From the NCBI GenBank assembly GCA_900708905.1, contig CAADRB010000056.1:618731-682730 (forward strand): DNA of 64,000 bases, given 5' to 3'. The stretch is from Hymenolepis diminuta. Lineage: Eukaryota; Platyhelminthes; Cestoda; Cyclophyllidea; Hymenolepididae. Each line of letters begins with the position of its first letter. Position 1 is the stretch's first letter. Below the pieces are notes generated by a model. That model was not told where the DNA came from, did not search any database, and saw only the letters and a list, made by a program, of their open reading frames with translations. The translations under genes and the position numbers were made by a program. This document shows, piece after piece, positions 33,703-57,159 of this stretch.

Positions 33703-34610
33703 ACAGGTTGGGTAAGGTATATGAGGACATTTTTAATTTTGCAATTTAAACTAACTCAATAATAATTAATATATTTTTATATCAGAAGATCCTGGTAAGT
33801 CAATGAGCAACATCTTGTCAATGATCTTCATGTATCTGAAGGAACAACGATATATAAGGAATGTGGTTCATCAAGATCTCGGATATAAATCTCACACGTT
33901 CTTAGACGAGGTCAGTTTATGTGAACAAAAACGACTCTTGAGAATTGTTTAATGCGTGCAAAGGGATTATTAAGCAAACTGAAACACCTGGAAGAAGAGG
34001 AGTGTCTTTGCTTTTTCCATGACCAAAAAAAATCCTCTACCAGGATCAAAAGTCAATCTAAGAAATGATGAGTGGCTGATTGTGTGGGGGCGAACCCCAC
34101 TGTAGTTCCAACTGTTATGTGGAACTGTGGAAGAAGTTTCCAGAAACAGTGATGGTTTTCATTGTTGTGAAGGTCAAAGAAGGGCACATTATGACTGCTC
34201 AATTTTTTTCACAGGGCCTTAGAGTTAATGCAGACGCAGATGCAGATGCCCATGTGGGGACTCTTCAAACCATTGTTGTTAAGCCGTCTTGGATAAATAG
34301 CGTAGCCAGTGAGGAAGACTCTATGTCTTTCCACAGGATTCGGCTCCATCCCATGCGGCTCTCAAAAGGCAGGATTGGTAGGTGGATGGCCGAGAATTTT
34401 CACCATCATGTCACACCAAACTTATGGCCTTCTAACTCCCTAGACCTTAATCCTTTGGATTTTTACGTGTGGGGCGTCGTTGAAATGGAAGTTAGTAAGT
34501 ATCCACATAACACCATATATCGCTTTTGTTAACTTCTTTGGTTAAGAATAGTCCAAAACTATTTGGGAAGCTTATTCCGTATAAATTTCAATAAAATAAA
34601 AAATAAAACT
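33703..34610 (+). mobile_element. Old mariner/Tc1-superfamily element, truncated and broken
   Basis: The transposase remnant spans about 33,780-34,540. An N-terminal helix-turn-helix portion reads RNVVHQDLGYKSHTF. An open 150-codon piece (34,080-34,532) contains VMVFIVV, then FFSQGLRVNADAD, later WMAENFHHHVTPNLWPS and LDLNPLDFYVWG, the usual end block around the third catalytic Asp. The block normally carrying the second Asp (FQQDSAP type) is unrecognisable (SFHRIRLHP). A GCAGATGC-type triplet expansion interrupts the chain near 34,230. ACAGGTTGGGTAAGGTAT at 33,704 looks like the left terminal repeat. No matching right end was found. Confidence 0.8.
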
Positions 34611-38865: not shown

Positions 38866-41800
38866 ATGACTGATGATCTTGCATCGCATGGCTTTGAGGT
38901 GGTCACCGACGAAGAAGGAAATGAGCTTGTAAAACTCATGTTCATGGATGAAAACAATGAGTCATCTGGATTTGCTCTTGTTTCTCCCGAAGATGCAAAG
39001 AAAATAATGAATGGTGAAGCCACTCTTCAAAATATTATTGATGAAGATGGAAAACAAGTACTAACTCTGGTTCCTGTCGAACAAGATCAGTTAGTGCTTC
39101 AGGTAAGCAGTCGACACCTTCGTATGGACGCGTGGGAGATGTTTTAATTTCCAAATATTCCCTTTTTTTTGCTCTTTAGGACACGACGGATGGAGGTGAG
39201 CACGCAAATTCAGAACAAACACAGAATTCTAATGCAGAGATCGCAAGTAAAGGGTCTGAGTCAAATGTTGCATCTGGTGAAGCTCTATCTCTAGAGGTTG
39301 AACATGCTGTTGATAATGCTCAAATTAATAAGACAGCAGCTGAAATGTCAGCTGCAGAACAATCAGCGGCTCTCGATCAAGATGAAAGTGGAGAACGTTT
39401 CACAATTACCGAACAGCCGGCTCTTCTAGATGGTCAACCTGTTCAGTTGGTTTCCCTACTAGACAGTTCTGGTAATGTAATTGAACAGAAACATGGTACT
39501 CATGGAAGTCAAATCGTAATGGAGCTTAGTGGTCAGGCGTTTTGTTATGAAATTCAAGGTCCGTCGGAAACTGGTGAACCCATATCAGTAAGATAAAATA
39601 AACTTTCTAATTTGTATTTTAGTCGACTTTGATGTTCGCTGATGAACAGGCACAGTCTCAGACTGTGGACACTACTTCAACTAATGAACCTAATCAGCAA
39701 CAATGGCCTGCTAGTGAGGTTTGTTTTCACTCACTTTTAGAACTAATTTATTTATTTTATCGTTCAAGTAAAAATAGAAATTCGCGGTCTTTAAATTAAA
39801 TATTAAAGCTTCACCCTCGAATTGCATTATTTCGGTTCATTTTTCATGCTCTATATGGCGTGTTACTAATTATTATTTGTAAAATTCCTAATGATGAGTA
39901 TCGCTTTGGTAGTTTTTTTTAGTTTCATATTTGGTCTCATCTGCTCTTAGTTAGGCGTAGTTTTCGTTTAATTTAATAAAACAACATTAAATACTATTTT
40001 GCAATGTTGAAATGCTTTAAAACATATTTCTCAAAGCAGTTATTATAGATTTTTTACTGGTTGTGTTCATGTTTGGTATTCTTTACCGTATTCCCTTTCT
40101 GTCTAACAGATGTTTAAGTTTTTTTCGGTTTTCTGATTTCCCGTATTCAGGAACTTAAATATCTTTCCTTTCACTTTTTCCTTATATTTAGTATTGCGTA
40201 AATAGAACTCCTTCATTTGTAAACATCACAATTCTGATAGTAAGTTATAGGTCTTTTAACAGTTTTGCCGTGAAGGAAAGTCTTTGCCCCGCTTTAAAGC
40301 TACATTTGCTCATATCACATTGAGACCAAAATGACAGAGGAATTATGACTTCTAAACCTTTATTGACTTGATTTTAAAACTATTTTTATCTGATTGCTGT
40401 GATTGGTCATCGAAGAGAGAATCAATCATTAATGTTCATTGAATTTCATGTCTGGCATGACTGGTTGGGCGATGAAGCAGTTAATGAGTAGCTCTTGGAC
40501 TCATTACACGAGGCCTGATATGATGAATTGGAAGTTTCACACCGGTGGCTTGAAATTGATACCTCAATTTCCTGCAACCGATGTTGCACTTCCTGTGTAT
40601 GAAAAAACATTGGTTGGTCTTCCAATTATGTTTAATCAGCGGTTAGTTGAAAACATGAAGTATTGTTAATTAGAAATGCTCTTTTCATTATCGGTTCTTC
40701 CCACGCCGTGTATTGAAAATTTAATTGTTCCTTCTTTCTCCTTGTACCTGTAAGTAAATGACTATCCGGACCTGCGGATTTTATTATACGTAATGGTGAA
40801 GCCTCTTTTTTCACAAAATATTAAAAGAAGGAGACACCTACAATCCTATTGGTTATAATAGCCATTGAGCTTGTCAACAACGAGTTTCATGCGCGGTTTC
40901 AGGGAAATAGATACTCACAAATTAGCTCATCTTTGCTTTGTTACTTGTTTTAAACATTTCCTATTTACACCAAATAGGGGTATAAAACATTTATTAAATC
41001 ACACATTTAGAAACTTGAACTGTTCCCCCATAGCGTGTCCTCTAAATCGTATTTATTTGATCTAAAAAAGAAGCTTCGTAAAAGTGCGCATTCCATTTAC
41101 AGGTTATCAAACAACCTGAGAATGAAACACCTCCAGGTCAACAATTTACTCTTACCGAGGTTTCAGCTGCACTGGATGGCAAGAATATCCAAACGGTCAT
41201 CTTGGAAGACGATAAGAAGAATGTTATTGATCAAAAGTACGGCCACTTTGGTGAACATGTCATCATTGAACTCAATGGTCAAACTATTGATTATTCTTTT
41301 ATGGGACCATCCGAGGATGGACAACCCATTCAAACTGTATTGGTTGTAACTAATGACGTTGGCGGTGGTGAAGATTCTGAAGCAGGACTAACTGCAGCTA
41401 ATTGGTGCCCTTCTGGTCTCTCTCTTGATCTCTATACCGCCGTTAGACGCAATGCCGAAGCAATATACCACGAGAGGTTGATCAACCGAGCTGATTTGAC
41501 CTTCCCCCAACCTGGTTCTGAGTTGTTCAACCCAAAGAAGGGATATGCGGATATGCAAGCTGCACTAGAGCTGGCCAGGTCCTACGCTGTTGGAGCGAAT
41601 CAAGGTGAAACACTGGAGAGGTATGAGCTCCTTCGTAATCATGCCAAGATTTATCACTGTGGGCCTCAGGCGCGTCCTCTCACTGTTACGGAAATGGTTG
41701 TCAACGAGGGTGCCTCACAGATATGTCGTTTTAAACCTGTGCTGATATTTCATAAAAGAGAGCTCTTCCATCTGGCCCAATTAATTACACAAGCCTGTTC

Positions 41801-42680
41801 GCAGGAAATCAAGGTCGCTCAAGTCTCCTATCAATCCCAAAAGCAACAACAAGTTAAACAAACTACTCAAATGTTGCACACCATTCAACCAGAGAGTGCT
41901 GTTGTTAGTGGACAGGTTGCTAATAGTCAGTTGGCAATGCTTGAATCGCGTGGTCTCACGGCTATTCAACCGAGTCATGTTCCTGCAAATGCTGGTCTTA
42001 TTGGAACCACAGTCCCATTCTCTCCTGATAGTGGTGTCGTTCTTGCTTATACGGCTAAAGATGCTTCGGCAGAGGCCGCAAAAAGTCGACAATCCCTTAA
42101 TGTGAATAACCTCCAGAATTACATGTCCAATATGGCTGTAGTTAAGCGCGACCCTACTCACAAGTTATCGGCGGCTGAATCAGAGGCATTGCGTTTGGCT
42201 GCAGTAAATGCTCTAACCGACCTACCAGTAACAATGGAGGTGAAGCCCAAATCAGATTGCACAAATATTGAGCGTGCATCCTGGGAAAGAGCTACGGAAC
42301 TTGCTGCGCTGCGCTCCGAGTCTGCAATGGGAACCAACGATCCGCATGCTATTGCTAGTCTCCTTGTTAACGATACCACCCGTGTAGATTCTGTGAGAGA
42401 GATTGCGGCACTCTATGGGCGTACTCCATTGCAAGGAGGCCAACAACAACAGCAAACAAGCATAGTGAGCCCCTCATATCCTGGTGGTCAACTTTCTGGT
42501 CAGAATAAATCTCCTCTACTCACTCCCTATGAGTCTGCTTGCAATGAGGCTGCAGCTTATCTTGCCGCTGGTCAACCGGCGCTTCTTACACGGAGAAGGG
42601 AACTTGCGGAATTGGCTAGAAAGGTTGTTCGCAATTGTGGTTGCCAGTTTCCGCATGCTCCAACTTTGGATAGAGGGTAG
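38866..42680 (+). CDS. Unrecognised repeat-containing protein, 772 aa, or N-terminal part of an LRWD1 fusion
   Basis: Four exons are all in phase: 38866-39102, 39180-39587, 39623-39718 and 41103-42676 (or to the TAG at 42,678-42,680). Intron 2 is only 35 bp. The start is the first ATG after a TATA box. The N-terminal half is acidic. A block of about 63 residues occurs twice (residues about 153-215 and 262-324). Both copies start FT[IL]TE, continue with a LDG motif, then [EQ]xKxGxxG and a GPSExGxPI ending. A helical motif of about 29 residues also occurs twice (about 448-476 and 728-756), with pattern N-E-[GA]-[AS], K/QP-x-L and RREL-x-x-LA. Gln-rich stretches lie between them. There is no catalytic motif, signal peptide or membrane segment. 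Gln-rich linkers and paired helices suggest a nuclear regulator, but this is inference and the family is not recognised. The frame can continue by splicing into LRWD1. Confidence 0.85.
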
Positions 42681-42751
42681 GTCGCTGTGTTATTACGCTT
42701 TTCTAGTATTTATGGTATGAAATAATTCGTAGTTTTGTTCCTTTTCTTTAG

Positions 42752-45700
42752 ATACTTTACTGTGGATCAAATCATGGAATTGGATCTTTCCGTTGCAGAG
42801 CAACTGCTCAATGATCCACTTGAACGGCTGGATCTGGATGCAGATACTGCATGTTCTGAGTCTGGTAAAGGGGATTTCTTGACTTACTACTTCCCTATAA
42901 ATCACGGTTGAGTAACTTTTTAGCAAATAGGCCATTCAAATCTTGTTTACTGAGATGCATAGCTATGGAATGCTTGGCGAAATTTGTGGCATGTTACTTT
43001 AAGAAGTTTGATTTTATTTTTAGACGTAGGACCTTGTATAATAGTTTTTATTCACTTTTATGTAGTTACTTCGTGTGATCCTCCCTCGTTTTACCCAGCA
43101 TGAATAACCATAGTGTAATACATCCATATGATCGTAAAAGAGTTCCCAATAAATGAAGTCTTGAATGTTTCATAGTATTTTGGGATATGAAGAAGCTAAA
43201 TTCGGTTGGAGTTTAGTTTTGGAGTCTGTTGGATGAAATTTGCACTTGATATCGGTTTTTCAGAAATACTAACAGTGAAATAGCACCACTCGTTCCGCTA
43301 ATGACGTTAAGCCCAGTACAAGAAAGAAGACGAAACGTGATATAACGGTTAATTCAGAGTTAAAAATGCCGTTACAATGATTATAATTCATTTGAAAGCA
43401 ACATGATTTTTTTTGAAATTATAAATTTACTATTTTTGTTCTTATACGTTTTTCACAATCTTATTTGACTTAAACCTGTAATATACTTATCTGAACGGAA
43501 TAATAAACTAAAATTAATGAATTTTTATCCTAGTCATCTTTTGAGACACCGAGAATAACAGTTATACATTGGATTGTCTTTACTTGTAGATGAAGCATTG
43601 TCCTTGGACTTATCCTGTGAGGAGCACAACATTCTGAATGAAATTTCCATTTTCGCGGCCACTGGAGCTGATACCTTGAGAAAAGTGCGGATTTTGAAGT
43701 AATCTAATCTAGTTCCTTTTGAATACCTAATATTATAAATTCCTCCCCTCAAAACTATTATGTACGCCTTTTCAGTCTTTCAGGTTGTTCGTTCACTGGA
43801 ATCGTGCCAGTGCATTTGAATCAGTGCATCAATTTGGTGGAACTTAATCTCTCTGACAACTACCTTCATGCATTCCCTCGATGTCTGTATCTGTCAAAAC
43901 TGAAGAGGCTGAATTTGAACAGAAATCCACTTCTGGTGAAATTTGCTAATGAGGTCGGACCACCACTAATTGAACAGTTCCCGAAATTGATTTCTGTTGA
44001 ATTGGATCACGAACTCAAGGATGTAAGTATTATTTCATTGGTTTTATTCCTTTTGGGTCTTTATTTACCCATTATAGCTTTTGTAGGCTTGAACTAGTGC
44101 ACATCTTGTGACTTGCTTGAAGTTTCGACGTAGATGGAGTGGAAAAAAACGTGACAATTTCTAATCCATTTTTATCATGTTGCTTAATTTGATTGTATTA
44201 GGTTACATTTTATTTTATTTAATTTTTAAGAGAAATGATATTTTAGAACAGTTTGTTCAGTTAATTATCCCCCCTCATCTGTTAGGAATTTCTTTGCATC
44301 AACCTGGATCTGCTCCATAATAAAGAAATGTCGGAATGTTAGGGTAATTTCAGTCAATCAGTCAGTCAGTTTTCTTACCTAATTTAGGATCATTCTATTA
44401 CTTCACAAACTGAAATTTACTGTCTTGTAGTCGACCAATTTTTGGAGATAAGTTAGAGATTTTCAACTCTAATAAATCGTGTTCTAGCTCTTAGGAGTTC
44501 TATTGCATATACTGCGGTGTGTCTTAATGTAGTAGAATATCATGTCTTTAAACTTCTATCCATTATCTCTGAAGACTTCCTAGATTAACAAATAGTATAA
44601 TAATTACTTTCTTTGCTTTAGATGTTGCAACCTCAAGCTCTGGCCTACCTCTGCCCGAATTTGAAATCTATCAATGGAGAAGAGTTCGATGTTGAAGTTA
44701 CAGAAGAAACTGCCAAGATAGCGCAAGCTGCTAAACAGGAACTGGCTGGATTGGTATGTTTTTGTCCAAGTTATTTTAAATTCACAGTTCCTCCCTATTC
44801 GCTCCTCTATGTTGAAATTTTTCGCTTACCTTTCAGGTCCATTCAAAATGGGAGGATGATTTGGTAGAGTACTTCAAGAAGAGCGTACCCCATCGCGATC
44901 TTATCTTGGTTACTGAGACACTCGTTGCTCATGCTGTTAATCAGTGTGCTAGTGTGGACGAGCCCTTCAAACACTGCAAAGCTGTTTTGGTGAGTATTTT
45001 CTATCATGCTATACGTATTTTCTAGCGGTACTGGTTCGTTCGAGGTCGTAGGAGGAAAAATGCTTTTCGGTCGCTGTGTCAGCTTCGTTTTTATTTCAAA
45101 ATAACAGTAACTCACTAATTAATGAAAATATGTGTGAATACAGACCTAGTTGGTAATCCTAAAACTTATTCGGTATATTCTGTTAGGTATTGGTAAATTA
45201 CGAATTTTCACATGATTGGTGAATTGTAGATCGTTTGCCTTTCTCCTATCACTCGACTCTTAAATAAATAGTAATTTACCTCCTTAAGTATTTGACGTAT
45301 TGGTATAGGATAACGAATATGGAAGAATCGATTTTTCTAAAGTGGAAATCGGTGTTTTTTTTTAGCCGTAGATCACTTTGGGAAGCAATTAGTTATTTGT
45401 TTTTTTATTATTAATCTCTCTTAGGCTCGTCAAATAGCCGAAGAGTTCCTTGCACCCAAGGTGGTAGACGATGAAGATGACGAAGAAAACCCTTCTCGTG
45501 AGACTTCTGATTCTCATGCTGAAGAACCACCATCTACATCCGCTGCTGTGACAGTTACTCCTACTGAAGAAGCATCAGTAGCAACAGCAGCTACTCAATC
45601 AGCAGCAGAATCCTCAGACCAGCAACCTCAACCGGTAATATCCACGGAAGAGGGTGCAACAGAGACAAAGACTGTTGAAGGAGATACTGACAAAGTCTGC

Positions 45701-48700
45701 ACTACTACTTCTACCACAAATGAAAGAAAGGATCCAGAGGCAGAAAGAGAGGCTGTGGCCGCTGCTCATAACATGGCCCTACTTCCTGATGAACCGTTGG
45801 ATCGGCTTGCAGGTGTTATTGGAACTGCTATGCAACATGGAAAGACTGTTGTCTATTCGGTCATTCGTTCAGCTGCTCGTCAACCTAATGGAGACCTGAT
45901 TATCCCTGTTGTCGGTGGCAGCATGGCTAATGGATTTGAATCCAGAGGTGAAGGTAAGTACTCTTTCTCTCCTTATTTCTATGTGATTTGTACTGTCTTT
46001 ATATTATTCGGGATACCTGAAAGGCAAATTTACTACTAATCAGTGAAGTTCAGGCTATTAGTAAGCAGATTTATGTGATATATCAAGTCAGAACTGAAAG
46101 GTATTGATTCACGAATAATATATTCTCTCGATGGTTCTATATGTCAAAGTCTTTGGAGGTAGGGTTGTAAGATAAGTTTGCAAATCCACTTGTGTCCAAG
46201 TTTGTGTTCTCGCTCTTTCTAGACGGTTACGAACAAAGTGACAATGAAAACAACGCTCCGACCACAGTGGCAGCAACTAAGCAGGCTGCACAGCGCCGTA
46301 CAACTGTTGGTGGAACTCGGACAGTACCTACAGGCGCAGCAGTCTTGGGACAACGACGCGCCGGTCTTCTGATGGCCAGTACTGGTCGCGCTTCTACCGG
46401 ATTGATCAAACAGCGCACTGCTACCGTCGCCTCGCGTAAACACGAAGAAGAGTATGCTATGGCTAGTGCTATCTCCTCCCATATCTACTCGAATTATGGT
46501 GATTTGGATGATCAGACTGATCAGGTGGTTGCTCCGAAACCACTCAAGCAACCTGGGCATTGGCAGCCTGGAAAACGTGGTCGACCACCGGCTTCGTTCT
46601 CCCAAAAGAGGTAATTTATCTTGATTCTTCATAGTTTTTTGCGTTTATTTGCTTTGTCTTGTCTTTGATCTCTTTTTTAAGAATTTCACCTGATGAAATG
46701 ATCTTGCCGGTAGTGGTTGGTGAAGTTATTCGGCTTTTTATTCTGATTACTAAGGATTATTAATTTTGTCGTATTTGACAGCATTTGGAATCTGAAAGTT
46801 AATAGTTTTGGCATCTTTGCTATCTCAAGTTCCATATGCTATGAAGTCGACAAGGTTATACTTAGAATGAGAATTATAAATAAGTGAATGACTTGGTCTC
46901 TGAACTTAATAGCACGGAATCATTTTAAAAGTATGGTAGTTTGGCCCCTGTTTGCACATTACTAAAGCTAGCATCGGCAAAATGTCCAAGAATTCGTATG
47001 CTTTGTGCAAGTTTGTATCAAAATTCCAGATTTTATTAATCATTAACAGATCGATGTAATTATTTCCTATTTCTTCAACCAGGAGAATGAAAAAGTTTTT
47101 GTTTAATTTTTCATCCCAGTTAGTATTGTGTGGTTACTTTCTTATAAGGTAGGTAAAGATTAAAATTTTATATTAAATCTCACTAGTACTTTTCCCATAT
47201 CTGTGTCAAACTTAAATTTAATTCATTTTCGTCGTGTTAAGTCAACTGAAATGGTGCAAGAGTAGAATCCAATAAAGTGATAAGAGTAGCGAGTCGGAAA
47301 AGCGTTTGCATTCAAGTCGGGGCATCAAAAGGGTGTTACTTTAGTTGATTATTTTATTCGAAGTGGGGACGATATTTGCTTTATGGGCAATCCTCTGCTT
47401 CAAGTTCTAATATTAAAACTTAATGACCCCTCCCCTAGATCACTAAGCACATTTCTCTCAGCGATTTCCAATGATTATTAGCCGGTCGGTTAATTAGTAT
47501 AGTCGGTCTTGCAACTTCAGCTCGTTCTTCTTTCAGAGTTGGCATAAAATAAGAATATCTTATTTGATATTTATATCAACAGCAGCTTACATGATGTGAA
47601 CATAGTAGAGTTCGCTCAAAGGAAATGTTGCACAGGACCTCAGCTTCCTTTATCTATTAAACAGTCTCTCCTCAAAAATGAATAGCATAACCGACTGAAA
47701 GTAACATTGAATAAGTACGGACGTAGAGTTGAGGCGATATCTTGATTTGACTAGAACAGATTTAGCTTTCCTCTTTATATTACCACAGTTAAATCGGATT
47801 TATATTAGCAAAATATTAATCTATGTGTTGAAAAGTGTGAACGCTGGTCCACGCAGTTTTATGGATTAGTTTTCTTTTTTTAAAGATGATTAATTAATAA
47901 TTGCGTATCATACCTTATTCGCTTTATTATTATTATAATATTATATATATATATATATTGTATATAGAGCCCAGGCGCAGAAGGAAGAAAAGGAAACAGC
48001 CGAGTTGCTACAAAATGTTAAGATTCCTCCACCGCATGCGCCTCCACCGGCCACCCTACGTATGTCCACTCGTGACTCCAATCGTATGAAGCGTTTCTCT
48101 GCCTACGGTGCAATAGATACGGCGGCCGCTTTGGCTGGACAAGAGGAAGCCCTCATGGTTGCTGCTATTGCCCAAGAGGATGAGGAAGCGGAGGGTATTT
48201 TCTCCAAGACAAAGGATGATGATTTTGAGGCCTCTCTCCATCCCTCGAAGAGACAAAGAAGAAGCGAAGGCTAGTGGTGGATTTTTTACTATGTCGGGAT
48301 ATCTAGACACGTAGCATTAATAGTAATTCGCATAGATAAGACGGAATTTGGCGACAAGAAACGGACCAAGTATATTGAATTAACAGAACCTTACTTTAGG
48401 CAGGTTCTAAAATCTTCAGATTCAATGTCCAACCTATGGGGAATTTAGGTGATATATTTTCATGAGATTTTGTATACACAGATATTTCCTAGTCGCTGAA
48501 AAGCAAAGTCCTCCTTCATTGAACCTTCCTCCATCTCCAGTTTCCTCATAACATTGAAGAGAGTCTTCTGTGGTTAGACATTTGATAGATATCATATTTA
48601 AGTATTTTCGAGATCCTGCGAGCAATTCATAAAATCCCGTAAGGGGATTTCGCTCCTTAGGATCCAGAAAGCTTCCCAAACCTATTAGAAGTGTTCACAA

Positions 48701-51700
48701 CTTTTGAATTGGGTACCGAAATGGTATTTTTGAACCGTCTTTGATAAAAACTCACATTCCGCCACCTCTTGTTTACCTGATTTAACTAGTGTGGTTGGTC
48801 ACCCACACCGCTGGATACGCACCGATGGGCATCATTATTGCGACCTTTGATTTGGTGGACGCAAGTTGCTCACTGTATCACCAGCACACCCTTAGGCAAT
48901 AGATTTTCCGATTGCCCTTCTTCCACGCTCGTAATATTTTACTGACTCATCATTTAGCTGATCAAATCTAAGTATCCTTGTTGTATATGGACAGTTATGA
49001 TTTCTTAACTTACAAGGTGGAGTGAAATGGCTCTTCTCTCTGAACAACCATGGCCATAGTATACCTTAGTGGGCAGCCTAGGCTATATAACTGACTACGT
49101 ACCGTTGTATCAGTAACAGACTTTATATTGTGCTAAGATTGTGGAAAACTTTTAGTTAACTTCGTCCTTTACTCTAAAAAATGTGTTATTCACTCTACAG
49201 AGACAGGTGACGAAGCGGAACATGTCCTGCGAACGGAAGTAGCAACATCCGCTCATCCAACTCCAGGCAAACGAGGCCGTAAACCTAAACCCAAACCTGC
49301 CACTTCTATCACTGTTACTACTGCTGTTGAAGTGGAAGAAACAGTTCAAGGTGAAAAGGACTTGGAAGACGAAGCTACTGTTCGTAGAATCATTGAGGCT
49401 TCTGCTAAGGCAGACAGCGTTCCTCCTGTACCAAGTCTCGTTCAACTTGGACGAGTAAGTCGCCTTTCTTAATTTCTCTTCATTCATACTTAGTAAAATG
49501 TAGTAAACTTGTTTTTTATCTATAGATTGTTGACTACGATCCTCTCCACTTCATTCGTTGTCATGCTCGTGATAATGACCCACTGGACTGTTCTACGAAA
49601 GTGTGGAGATGTGCTATTGAACCAGATCCGAGTGATCCAAAGAGGACTACTTCTATAGTTGCAACTTGTGGTGGAGAATGTGTTTGTCTTATTGACTGTC
49701 AAACTGGAAAAGTCCTTAAGAGATTCAAGCATGTTGGGGAGGCAAGCCATAACTACGAATTTTCTTAACAGCTTTGATTTTATTTTACTAAGCTTCATGT
49801 AACAGGCTTTGAGTCTTCATTAGCTAAGGATTGAAACCAGCGTTCTCTTTCGGGAAACAGGGGTATTCTATGCAATATTTTCCTAGTGTTTATTGGTACC
49901 TCCTAGGTGAATAGAGATTATTACGGAGGCAAATCATAGTCTGCGATATTCTACAAAAATATGAAGTGTCTTACTAATCAATGGTACGTCTAGAGACACT
50001 CTTAAAAGTTGGAGATTAGTAAGTTAACGACTTATGGCTTGAATCTTAGCTATCCATACCTTAATGTTGACGGCTTAATGTTGTGGTCATTCCATTTAAC
50101 AGTTGGAAGCTTTATTTGTGGACCGTGACAGATTCTTTGGGCACATAGTGATTCTGCAATATTAGTAACAAATCTGTATGTTCTGTAACATTTGTTCTTT
50201 TCGAAAGGAGTTTTACTCAGTCGCGTGGACAACAGTTGAAATGGCCTCTGGACACAGGACCAACCTACTCGCAGCAGCAGGAAAACTAAAGGAAATTCGA
50301 CTTTTACATCCGGAGAGATTGGTATGCTACGCGGAAATGAAGGCTCACAAGGAGGAGATCGCTTGCATGGTTTTCCATCCTTTAAAACCTACAATTCTCT
50401 TTTCTGGTGACTCAAAGGCATGTAGTGCTGTTAAGAGTGCTTTCGTACTAACTCTGGTAGTCTCACCTAACTCTGTTCGATCCCACATTTCAGGCTTGTA
50501 TCTGTGTTTGGGATATTGGTGTCCCATCTGCGCCTGATTATAGAACACGACATCATCTACTAATGAGACTTTTGTGTCCCCGACCGAATTTAAATCCTGT
50601 GCTTAATCTAATCTTCATGCCCAACTATGATACACTACTGGCTGGTTGCGAAGACGGCGTTTTCGCGTGGACCATCCAAGACTTCAAGAAACAGCGTTTT
50701 GTTGAGGAGAAGTGTGTGGTGAAGTCGTATCATTTCAGTCTGTTGTGGTTCTTTAACGTGGAATTTGAGTGTTTTGTTTTTTTTCTCTGTAGACCTCCGA
50801 CAATGGAAATTAAAATCCCTACCAACCGTGAGCCCTGTTTCGATGGTCTAGCTCGACTGTCAGAAAATCTTGTTGTTATAAAGTGTGTGGAAGAGGGAGA
50901 AATATATGCTTTCGACTTTGGTCAAGTAAGTTCAATTCAAGTGCCTCTATATTAAATATATAATCTATGTAGTGAGTGGGTATATGTATCTATGGTAGCG
51001 CGTATTAAAAATTATAAACCTGGAAAGTGGTTAGTAATCTATAAGTGTATTTTCAAACCCATTCCAACTATTCATTGTACTCAAGGTGATGGCTGTTGAT
51101 TATCGTTAACTTTTCCGTGTTATTATTTCTATGATATTGCAAAAAGATCTCAGAAATCCTGAGTAAGCATATGAATAAGAATGATAAGAAATAAGTTCAA
51201 TAAGGTGAGAAATGAGGGAAGAGGTCAAGAAATCAGGGCATCAAGAATCATACTATTTAAATTATGAAATCATTGAGTTGTTATACTCTCATTAGGAATA
51301 TAGTTCACTCTATCATGTCATAATTATCAAGCCTAATTATCTGACTCTCAGGTTCATGGATGATATTCAGAGCTCGTTGGCTGGTTGATTTAATTCTGTA
51401 GTTGGTCCTGCCACGATCTATTCTTATTACAGCCAAGGGCTGGTGCCTGACACTAGAAACAACTTCTTAAATATACTCGAGTCGTTTTTCAAAATTTCTA
51501 TTTTATATATACTGCCTTTTTCGTTTATTCTTACCGCTTTCTTCAAAATCAACTTTTTACAGAGTTGTGCTTACAACTAAAGTGGGTTAATATAATTTCA
51601 TTTTTTTACTTATTTGAGCTCCTCTTGAATCGCAAGGGATCTTCAGCATCCAAGAAGGTAGTAACTGCCGAAGTGTTAGGCAAAATGCGATGGCAAACAA

Positions 51701-52435
51701 CTGATGAAATTTATATCAACGTCACTGCACGACCGGGTCTTGGTGCTGTTGTCTGCGGTGACAATGAGGGTACAATCTGGCTCTATGATCTTCAACAGCA
51801 CGTTGTTAATGAGGGCAGCAATCAGAGGTTCAACGTCAAACCTAATAAGGTATGTCATCTCGGCTAATTTCTCGTTCCTTCTAAAGTGTTGTGTGAATAA
51901 TTACTTAACGGATTGTTGACTTACAAAACCGGATTATCGTTAGTGTATGAAAAGGAAGGGAGAAGTACTAAAAAGCAGTATTCAATTGCATGCCGGCCCG
52001 AATATCTAGGTAAATAGTCTAAACTAGCCCCCATCTCCCCAGCCTTTAATTATATTCTTCCTATAAATGATCTCGTAACAAGTGGTAGTATGTTGGGGGT
52101 AACTGCACTTCTGTTTTATCTCTCCGGGTCTGAGTTACCTATTGCTTGGCGATATTTAGCGGACAGGTAGATCATTGCGGCAGAAATTAAACGTCCTAGC
52201 ATCCTGATAGTGTAGAAGAGACTTTAATACCCTTTCCTCTCTTTCCTTGCAGATCCTCGAATGGCCGGAATGCAGTGTAGGTGGAACTCGTGAAGAAGAT
52301 CCGCAGGTGAAGGATACAATCAATTCTGGCTTCAAAAATCCTGTTGTCAACTCCACTGACATCAGCTCGGATGGCAAGTACCTGGTCGCCGTGACCGATA
52401 ATAATCTGGTGTGCATATGGAACTTTTCGGGTTGA
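42752..52435 (+). CDS. LRWD1 / ORCA, ORC-associated LRR and WD40 protein
   Basis: Exons: 42752-42864, 43590-43698, 43776-44022, 44622-44753, 44837-44989, 45425-45953, 46223-46610, 47968-48269, 49201-49454, 49526-49741, 50208-50417, 50494-50711, 50793-50925, 51619-51849, 52253-52435 (TGA). From ATG 42,774 the product is 1,131 aa, against 647 for human LRWD1. The first ATG is used only if the gene is separate; otherwise the frame enters from exon 4. LRRs occupy about 59-126 (KVRILNLSGC, LVELNLSDNYL, LKRLNLNRNPL). A conserved helical region follows (PNLKSINGEEF, VHSKWEDDL). Next come a long acidic and Ala/Ser/Thr-rich linker, two AT-hook-like motifs (KRGRPP at 538-543, KRGRKP at 674-679) and a basic PSKRQRR. 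The WD40 propeller spans about 736-1131 with family signatures DYDPLHFIRCHARDND, VATCGGECVCLIDCQTG, EEFYSVAW, VWDIGVP and LAGCEDGVF. In vertebrates LRWD1 binds ORC and repressive histone methylation and stabilises ORC on chromatin. The extra linker and AT hooks may add DNA contact. Identity is firm. The start of exon 14 of this list (51,619) and the exon 8 end are the least certain boundaries. Confidence 0.93.
47470..47625 (+). mobile_element. Gypsy-like RT fragment inside an LRWD1 intron
   Basis: Located in the 1.36-kb intron 46,611-47,967. Translated codons read YSRSCNFSSFFFQ, later SYLIF, then LHDVN. They line up in order with NRPCNSNSLLLPK, SYTLF and FHDLN of the copy at 11,882. Frameshifts and stops are present. 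It is the second-best copy of this repeat family. Confidence 0.4.
47942..47959. repeat. (TA)n microsatellite
   Basis: Lies immediately upstream of the acceptor of the LRWD1 exon at 47,968, where it forms part of the AT-rich acceptor region. Confidence 0.8.
51350..51440 (+). mobile_element. Gypsy-like RT fragment inside an LRWD1 intron
   Basis: In the intron 50,926-51,618. GATATTCAGAGCT continues as codons for ELVGWLI, stop, FCSWSCHDLFLLQPR, which parallels ELIDWLFKYSNRPCN and SLLLPK at 11,950. A fragment with an in-frame stop. Confidence 0.4.
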
Positions 52436-55765: not shown

Positions 55766-56309
55766 GCTCAGAATACAGTAACATAAACCCAAAAAACCTT
55801 CCAATTCAGAATTTGACTGCAGGTGCATCTTATTATGCTTTAAAGGAAGAAACAGTCCAAGGTAAAATGAACTTAGGTTATAAAGATACCATTAGTAAAA
55901 TAATCGGGGCTTTTATTATTATGGCTAGCTCTTCTCTGGTGCCGGGGACAGTTCAACTTGGTGGAGTATTTTGGGACTTTCTTAATCATTCCCTTCTTGT
56001 GTTAATAAACTGTTCTTATCGACACACGGAAGGTTGACTACGATTTGTTCCACTATTTTCGATGCCACGATTGAGGTACCGATTCAATGAACTCTTCTGT
56101 CACAGTATAGAGTTGTGCTTTGGAACCATATCCAAAAGAACTCAGAAGGACTGCTTATGTCGTGGCAACTTGGGGTGGAGAAAGTTTTGTTTTATTGATT
56201 GTGAAAATGGAAAGCTTCGGAGATTCACTAAAGATAGGGAAATGAGTTATTTTGGTTTATGCGCTTATTTAAAAAATTAATTGGACAAGGGACACGAGGG
56301 TGTGTCTCC

Positions 56310-56410
56310 TGATCTAGCCAGTGGCCATTGTTCTCACATGCGTGACTGATTGGCTCACTCTACGTGCATGCAGGTGCATCATACCAGTTGGCATGAGTGC
56401 TTGATGAAAT
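56310..56410 (+). repeat. Dispersed repeat, copy b
   Basis: Lies between two exon remnants of the LRWD1 pseudogene. Shares the pattern CCAnTnGnCnTTGTTC then CACATG with 57,348, and AGTGCTTGATG-like sequence with 53,980. Confidence 0.3.
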
Positions 56411-57159
56411 GCATTTCAGTTATATTGCTATGTCAAGTCAATGTTTAATTACTTTTAAAAGATTATCACTCTTTTGCATTGACCGCATCTAAAATGTCCA
56501 ATGTAAACCTGTTAGTCGTTGTAGAAAGCTGAAGATAATTGTCCTTTTTCACTGTGAGCCTCTGATTTATTATGGGATTGTAGAGAAAAATCAATTACAT
56601 GAGTTTTCATCCCTCCAAACCCACTATTCTCTTCTCTGGTGATCGTCAGATATTTAATTATAGTAGCAGTCCCTCCTTGATAGTTTGCTTGACCGTATTC
56701 ATACCTTTCCTTCGAGCGTCAGATTTTCGTATGGGACATTATTGTTCTAACTGAATTTAATTATAAAATTTTCTAAGGTCTAATAATTAAACTTGAGTTT
56801 TTCAGTATGCAGTCTAATATTTATGCCGAATTACCCTACTTTTCTGCGAAGACGGTATCTTCATGTGCACTATCCAAGATTTCAAGCCCATTAATCAGAG
56901 TAAGTGAACGCGCCTAATTCGACCCTAAACTTAACCCTAGTTAGTATGCATTAAAATTGATTGTTGATAATATTATGTCCTGCGCCTGCCCATTTTAAGT
57001 GGCTTACGCAGAAGTAGGGAGAACGACGTGAACCTATCTAGGCAGTCTTGATTTTGATAAGGTACTTAAACGACTATCACACAAAGGTCTGAGACGGCTC
57101 GTGAGAATGGGGAGAGTGAGGGTTAAAGCCAAATAAGCCTAATGGTTCATGGGAAGGGG

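Follow-up and report, generated by a model that had tools for sequence, protein, structure and literature searches.

A probable fusion of tandem NCD2 domains to LRWD1/ORCA in the tapeworm Hymenolepis diminuta, joined across a short in-frame intron

We analyzed a window of 64,000 nucleotides (nt) of Hymenolepis diminuta DNA (contig CAADRB010000056.1, positions 618,731 to 682,730), in which a frame encoding two NCD2 domains runs to an in-frame TAG and is followed closely by a frame encoding a relative of LRWD1/ORCA (origin recognition complex-associated protein). A preliminary description of this DNA had proposed either a fusion protein or a packed gene pair resolved by spliced-leader trans-splicing. 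Comparison with related sequences makes it very probable that the two halves belong to a single fused gene, separated by an ordinary cis-spliced intron of 75 nt, rather than to a trans-spliced pair. The fusion alternative is borne out by a paralog that is open across the junction and has no start that would keep the LRWD1 repeats, by two related sequences that read through the junction, and by the co-occurrence of NCD2 with the LRWD1 propeller at each of the two loci found.

We modelled the fused gene as 19 exons on the + strand, from ATG 38866 to the TGA at 52433-52435 (Table 1). As the preliminary description had stated, exon 4 ends at 42676 with AGAGG/GTAGGT, a TAG follows at 42678-42680, an acceptor lies 71 bases on (counted from 42681 through the AG at 42750-42751), and exon 5 contains an in-frame ATG at 42774. 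The acceptor is pyrimidine-rich. Its claim of an open fused frame also stood: joining 42676 to 42752 leaves a single stop, at the end of the last exon. The lengths it gave did not. The fused coding sequence is 5,613 nt (1,870 residues plus the stop), not 5,733, and the upstream frame alone, from ATG 38866 to the TAG and left unspliced at the junction, encodes 763 residues, not 772; LRWD1 read from ATG 42774 would have 1,100. The junction-spanning peptide of the fused protein is LDRGYFTVDQIMELDLSVAEQ. At 75 nt, the junction intron is of ordinary size for this gene, as 8 of its 18 introns, this one included, measure 62-83 nt, and the in-frame TAG sits within its donor. We infer that 42676 is spliced to 42752 in H. 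diminuta; the stretch from 42677 to 42751 would thus be a short cis-spliced intron with a TAG in its donor by coincidence.

A whole-genome search for NCD2 (PF04905) placed at least four matches, all of them in the window gene or in a paralog on contig C173 (loci L006/L007), and a search for the LRWD1 propeller (PF23215) gave at least five, at exactly those two loci. Both counts are lower bounds, and 14 control genomes gave no match in either search. The paralog can be read as nine exons encoding 1,565 residues in one open frame, within which Pfam recognized NCD2 (E value 4.3e-22, two stretches), LRR_LRWD1 (7.9e-8), and WD_LRWD1 (5.7e-63). Its junction intron is 685 nt long and of phase 2 (454036/454722), and is preceded by GAT AGA TG, compared to GAT AGA GG in the window. 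Past the junction, methionine (Met) first appears at position 227 (residue 612 of the protein), which lies past the LRR_8 match (526-583) and within the LRR_LRWD1 match (545-666). Therefore, the paralog has no start that keeps the LRWD1 repeats, and a separate cistron would lose the first of them. Since the acceptor is in phase 2, a leader ending in AUG would also be in the wrong frame there. Four of the eight paralog introns, including the junction intron, align with window introns in both column and phase. The paralog model also contains a 39-nt intron (C173:452967-453005, L006), far below the ~75-nt class.

Three protein searches, each scoring the ~7,990 candidates that shared most words, yielded 3, 10, and 14 matches. 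By Pfam, eight of the 10 (P0006-P0013) and three of the 14 (P0020-P0022) were other leucine-rich-repeat proteins. Among the remainder, P0001 and P0002 terminate at DRG, like the unspliced window frame, P0014 terminates at DRGLVIIFICAQ, and P0016 terminates at SDKM. These sequences are conserved up to the donor and diverge beyond it, which is the pattern expected for an intron. P0003 and P0017 have no intron at this position and continue without a break (DRGYYSVDQVMELDLS-AEQLLHDPLERL), with the junction stretch YYSVDQVMELDLS uninterrupted in both. The seven residues before the Met are YYSVDQV in these two sequences and YFTVDQI in the window, the changes being conservative. P0003 ends where intron 6 would start, and P0017 runs out in an apparent intron 5. 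P0018, which we took to be from the contig of P0003, reads through an apparent intron 7, so this contig looks genomic. The junction intron is probably old, to judge from these alignments, and would have been lost in the lineage of P0003 and P0017. If P0003 and P0017 were instead partly spliced RNAs, they would show cis-splicing directly.

Fused proteins also occur in the databases. The deposited H. diminuta protein P0004 is fused and is identical to our model over residues 1-1,500, after which the two diverge. P0005, from Paragonimus kellicotti, carries NCD2 (E value 1.1e-7, one stretch) followed by LRWD1 in one protein. Introns 14 and 15 of our model have GC rather than GT donors (window 49742 and 50418); in P0004, this region is spliced otherwise, with a loss of WD residues. 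RNA-seq went into the published annotation of H. diminuta (PMC6890685), from which P0004 may derive.

Several points weigh against a fused, cis-spliced gene. P0004 and P0005 are database gene models. In P0005, the junction peptide differs and a stretch of sequence is repeated; its exon 5 may therefore be mis-modelled, and it supports only the linkage of the two halves. The match between the junction introns of the window gene and the paralog is weakly anchored, by a dipeptide (DR), because an 11-residue alignment gap adjoins the junction. P0003 and P0017 retain the Met encoded by ATG 42774, so LRWD1 may have its own start in the window gene. Finally, helminth-specific fusions have been viewed as mostly artefacts in a survey (PMC12964723).

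One alternative is compatible with fusion: the locus could mainly produce the fused mRNA and also a minor mRNA for LRWD1 alone, made by a leader joined at the same acceptor or from an internal promoter. We consider this unlikely, although many acceptors serve both cis- and trans-splicing in parasitic flatworms, three internal trans-splice sites were confirmed by reverse transcription PCR in H. microstoma (PMC12582326), and the conserved Met would provide a start. Opposing it, an AUG-ending leader at 42752 would open an out-of-frame peptide of 21 residues (MILYCGSNHGIGSFRCRATAQ) that reaches its stop only after overlapping ATG 42774. All reported flatworm leaders end in ATG, although two candidate leaders, from Clonorchis and Schistosoma bovis, do not (PMC12582326).

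Far less probable is an operon in which the upstream gene stops at the TAG ending at 42680 and LRWD1 is trans-spliced from 42752 and starts at ATG 42774. The gap between TAG and acceptor is tiny, as in flatworm spliced-leader operons, and the in-frame ATG, whose Met P0003 and P0017 share, lies 22 nt past the acceptor. Candidate operons (genes on the same strand no more than 300 nt apart) are also common in cestodes, with a median of 448.5 per genome, and some flatworm candidates have been annotated as single chimeric genes (PMC12582326). However, in contrast to such operons, the window keeps its frame across the gap, P0003 and P0017 lack an intron at the junction, and the paralog, with the same plan, offers no usable second start. 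In addition, residues upstream of ATG 42774 are conserved, and an AUG-ending leader at 42752 would not set the LRWD1 frame. None of 11 tested polyadenylation hexamers occurs in the 71-nt gap, though AATAAT, a variant outside the list, is present; in the 400 nt that follow the stop of LRWD1, the same list finds three sites, ATTAAA and GATAAA among them. The packed gene pair thus did not hold up as the main mode of expression, given the missing hexamers, the frame of the leader AUG, and a spacing of 75 nt that is the size of an intron.

That gene-prediction software merged neighbors in frame by chance, as the general prior from the fusion survey would have it (PMC12964723), is highly improbable, since the arrangement recurs in the paralog, in the intronless P0003 and P0017, and in the Paragonimus model. 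Judged by sequence comparison, the in-frame, phase-2 plan is beyond chance, recurring as it does in the paralog and running continuously through P0003 and P0017. The survey covered 20 species and judged most helminth-specific fusion models likely artefacts; in the one species that overlapped, these models and leader-bearing genes had no overlap (PMC12964723). The main text of the survey does not mention LRWD1, NCD2, or Hymenolepis. Mean interdomain distances were 180 base pairs in conserved fusions and 1,851 in helminth-specific models (PMC12964723). With 77 residues between NCD2 and the leucine-rich repeats, the window protein is nearer to the conserved fusions than to the suspect models. It resembles the latter in that, among the literature matches listed, no paper is by its title on an NCD2-LRWD1 fusion and LRWD1 is not named, but differs in its short interdomain distance and in being present twice in one genome as well as in several other sequences.

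The single protein that a cis-spliced gene would encode has about 1,870 residues and is predicted to consist of two small repeats and two NCD2 domains, followed by the LRWD1/ORCA portion with its leucine-rich repeats, linker, and WD beta-propeller. The downstream half matches WD_LRWD1 (PF23215) with an E value of 7e-68, and its best solved relatives are the LRWD1 chains of PDB entries 8siy and 8siu. The propeller is 40.4% identical over 327 columns to 8siu, which we take to be human LRWD1. For the repeats, LRR_LRWD1 (PF23211) scores 22 bits in the window gene, under its 28-bit cut-off, and 32.7 bits, above it, in the paralog, while the generic LRR_1 scores 23.4 bits in the window gene, above its cut-off of 20.6. 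The window protein is like LRWD1/ORCA in having leucine-rich repeats and then an LRWD1-type WD propeller. It is unlike it in carrying ~770 extra N-terminal residues with two NCD2 domains, in the linker motifs GKRGRPP and GKRGRKP, which we take to be AT-hook-like, and in its length of 1,870 residues, compared to 651 for the 8siy chain. Downstream of the gene, window positions 55789-56886 hold a degraded partial second copy of the LRWD1 3′ half, detected as three tblastn matches (30-46% identity) within residues 1424-1687; it is not among the five genome-wide propeller matches.

In the upstream half, NCD2 (PF04905) was the sole Pfam family at an E value of 1 or below (3.2e-21, two stretches), and the solved NAB1 structure PDB 2yuf matched weakly (0.0023). 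The second NCD2 copy ends 26 nt before the junction. Like the corepressors NAB1 and NAB2 (NGFI-A-binding proteins), the window protein has an NCD2 domain; unlike them, it has two copies, is joined to LRWD1, and showed no NCD1, the domain with which NAB proteins bind EGR. NCD1 was not detected in the window protein at E values up to 1, nor in the paralog up to 0.01. A genome-wide NCD1 search gave no match, but neither did it give one in any of the 14 control genomes; absence from the genome, and with it the absence of a separate NAB gene, is therefore not established. A canonical NAB identity was set aside because NCD1 was not found in the protein. Structure prediction for exon 4 was too poor for a fold search (mean predicted local distance difference test score 32.7 from a single sequence, 39.7 from seven). 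Ahead of the NCD2 domains, a repeat of ~65 residues occurs twice (window 39390-39584 and 41136-41330), the copies being 49% identical; it has no Pfam family and, by eye, was not seen in the paralog model.

The domain pairing suggests what the fused protein might do. In human ORCA, the WD domain binds methylated H3K9, and the protein scaffolds H3K9 methyltransferases and binds the origin recognition complex (PMC4442312). In NAB2, NCD1 serves EGR binding and NCD2 transcriptional regulation, and the protein recruits CHD4/HDAC1 (PMC2768752). The LRWD1 half could therefore anchor the tapeworm protein to the origin recognition complex and to methylated histones, and the two NCD2 domains could bring a transcription-repressing surface to LRWD1-bound chromatin in cis. 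NAB proteins, in contrast, are brought to chromatin by NCD1, which binds an EGR factor on DNA. By analogy, the simplest function that we infer for two NCD2 domains joined to LRWD1 without NCD1 is that of a chromatin-tethered repressor at heterochromatin or origins.

The fusion appears to be old, as the C173 paralog is built alike and both halves are present in the Paragonimus model. Over the 327 propeller columns, the window gene is 75.8% identical to Paragonimus and 65.1% to its own paralog, and the paralog is 63.3% identical to Paragonimus. These identities suggest that the fused gene had already been duplicated, and hence that the fusion had arisen, before tapeworms and flukes split, although the four-sequence propeller tree that groups the window gene with Paragonimus against the paralog and 8siu has a bootstrap value of only 54%. 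Possibly, an ancestor of tapeworms and flukes fused tandem NCD2 domains to LRWD1/ORCA and later duplicated the gene, NCD2 repression was rewired from EGR-bound promoters to heterochromatin and replication origins, and the shared acceptor may release LRWD1 by trans-splicing. This combined scenario is somewhat less likely than not; the rewiring is proposed because every NCD2 match found in H. diminuta now lies in an LRWD1 protein.

A real fusion this well supported, in a group whose helminth-specific fusion models were mostly judged artefacts, would be a warning that genuine fusions can be lost to filters resting on that judgement. The presence of a corepressor domain and a heterochromatin and origin-licensing protein on one chain would hint that the two cooperate in other animals, perhaps through direct contact between NAB2 and LRWD1. 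The junction could also serve to test what decides, in flatworms, whether an acceptor is used in cis or in trans.

Table 1. Modelled features of the NCD2-LRWD1 gene, in window coordinates
Feature	Position	Strand	Basis
Exon 1, start ATG 38866	38866..39102	+	Gene model; identical to deposited P0004 here
Exon 2, contains first ~65-residue repeat	39180..39587	+	Gene model
Exon 3	39650..39718	+	Gene model
Exon 4, second ~65-residue repeat, NCD2 copies 1 and 2	41103..42676	+	Gene model, domain searches
NCD2 (PF04905) copy 1, model positions 51-117, 38.5 bits	41616..41804	+	Genome search (C142:660346-660534)
NCD2 (PF04905) copy 2, model positions 75-119, 39.5 bits	42516..42650	+	Genome search (C142:661246-661380)
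Junction intron NCD2/LRWD1, 75 nt, phase 2, GTAGGT...TTTCTTTAG	42677..42751	+	Sequence, gene model
Exon 5, junction peptide YFTVDQI, then Met (ATG 42774) ELDLS...	42752..42864	+	Gene model; P0003/P0017
Exon 6, LRWD1 segment before the leucine-rich repeats	43590..43698	+	Gene model
Exon 7, leucine-rich repeats	43776..44022	+	Gene model, Pfam
Exon 8	44622..44753	+	Gene model; following intron matches paralog in column and phase
Exons 9-11 (44837-44989, 45425-45953, 46223-46610)	44837..46610	+	Gene model; AT-hook-like GKRGRPP at 46570-46590
Exons 12-13 (47968-48194, 49201-49454)	47968..49454	+	Gene model; AT-hook-like GKRGRKP at 49266-49286
Exons 14-19, WD_LRWD1 beta-propeller (PF23215), stop TGA 52433-52435	49526..52435	+	Gene model, Pfam, genome search

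Elsewhere in the window, positions 34080-34532 contain an open frame that resembles a mariner-type transposase.

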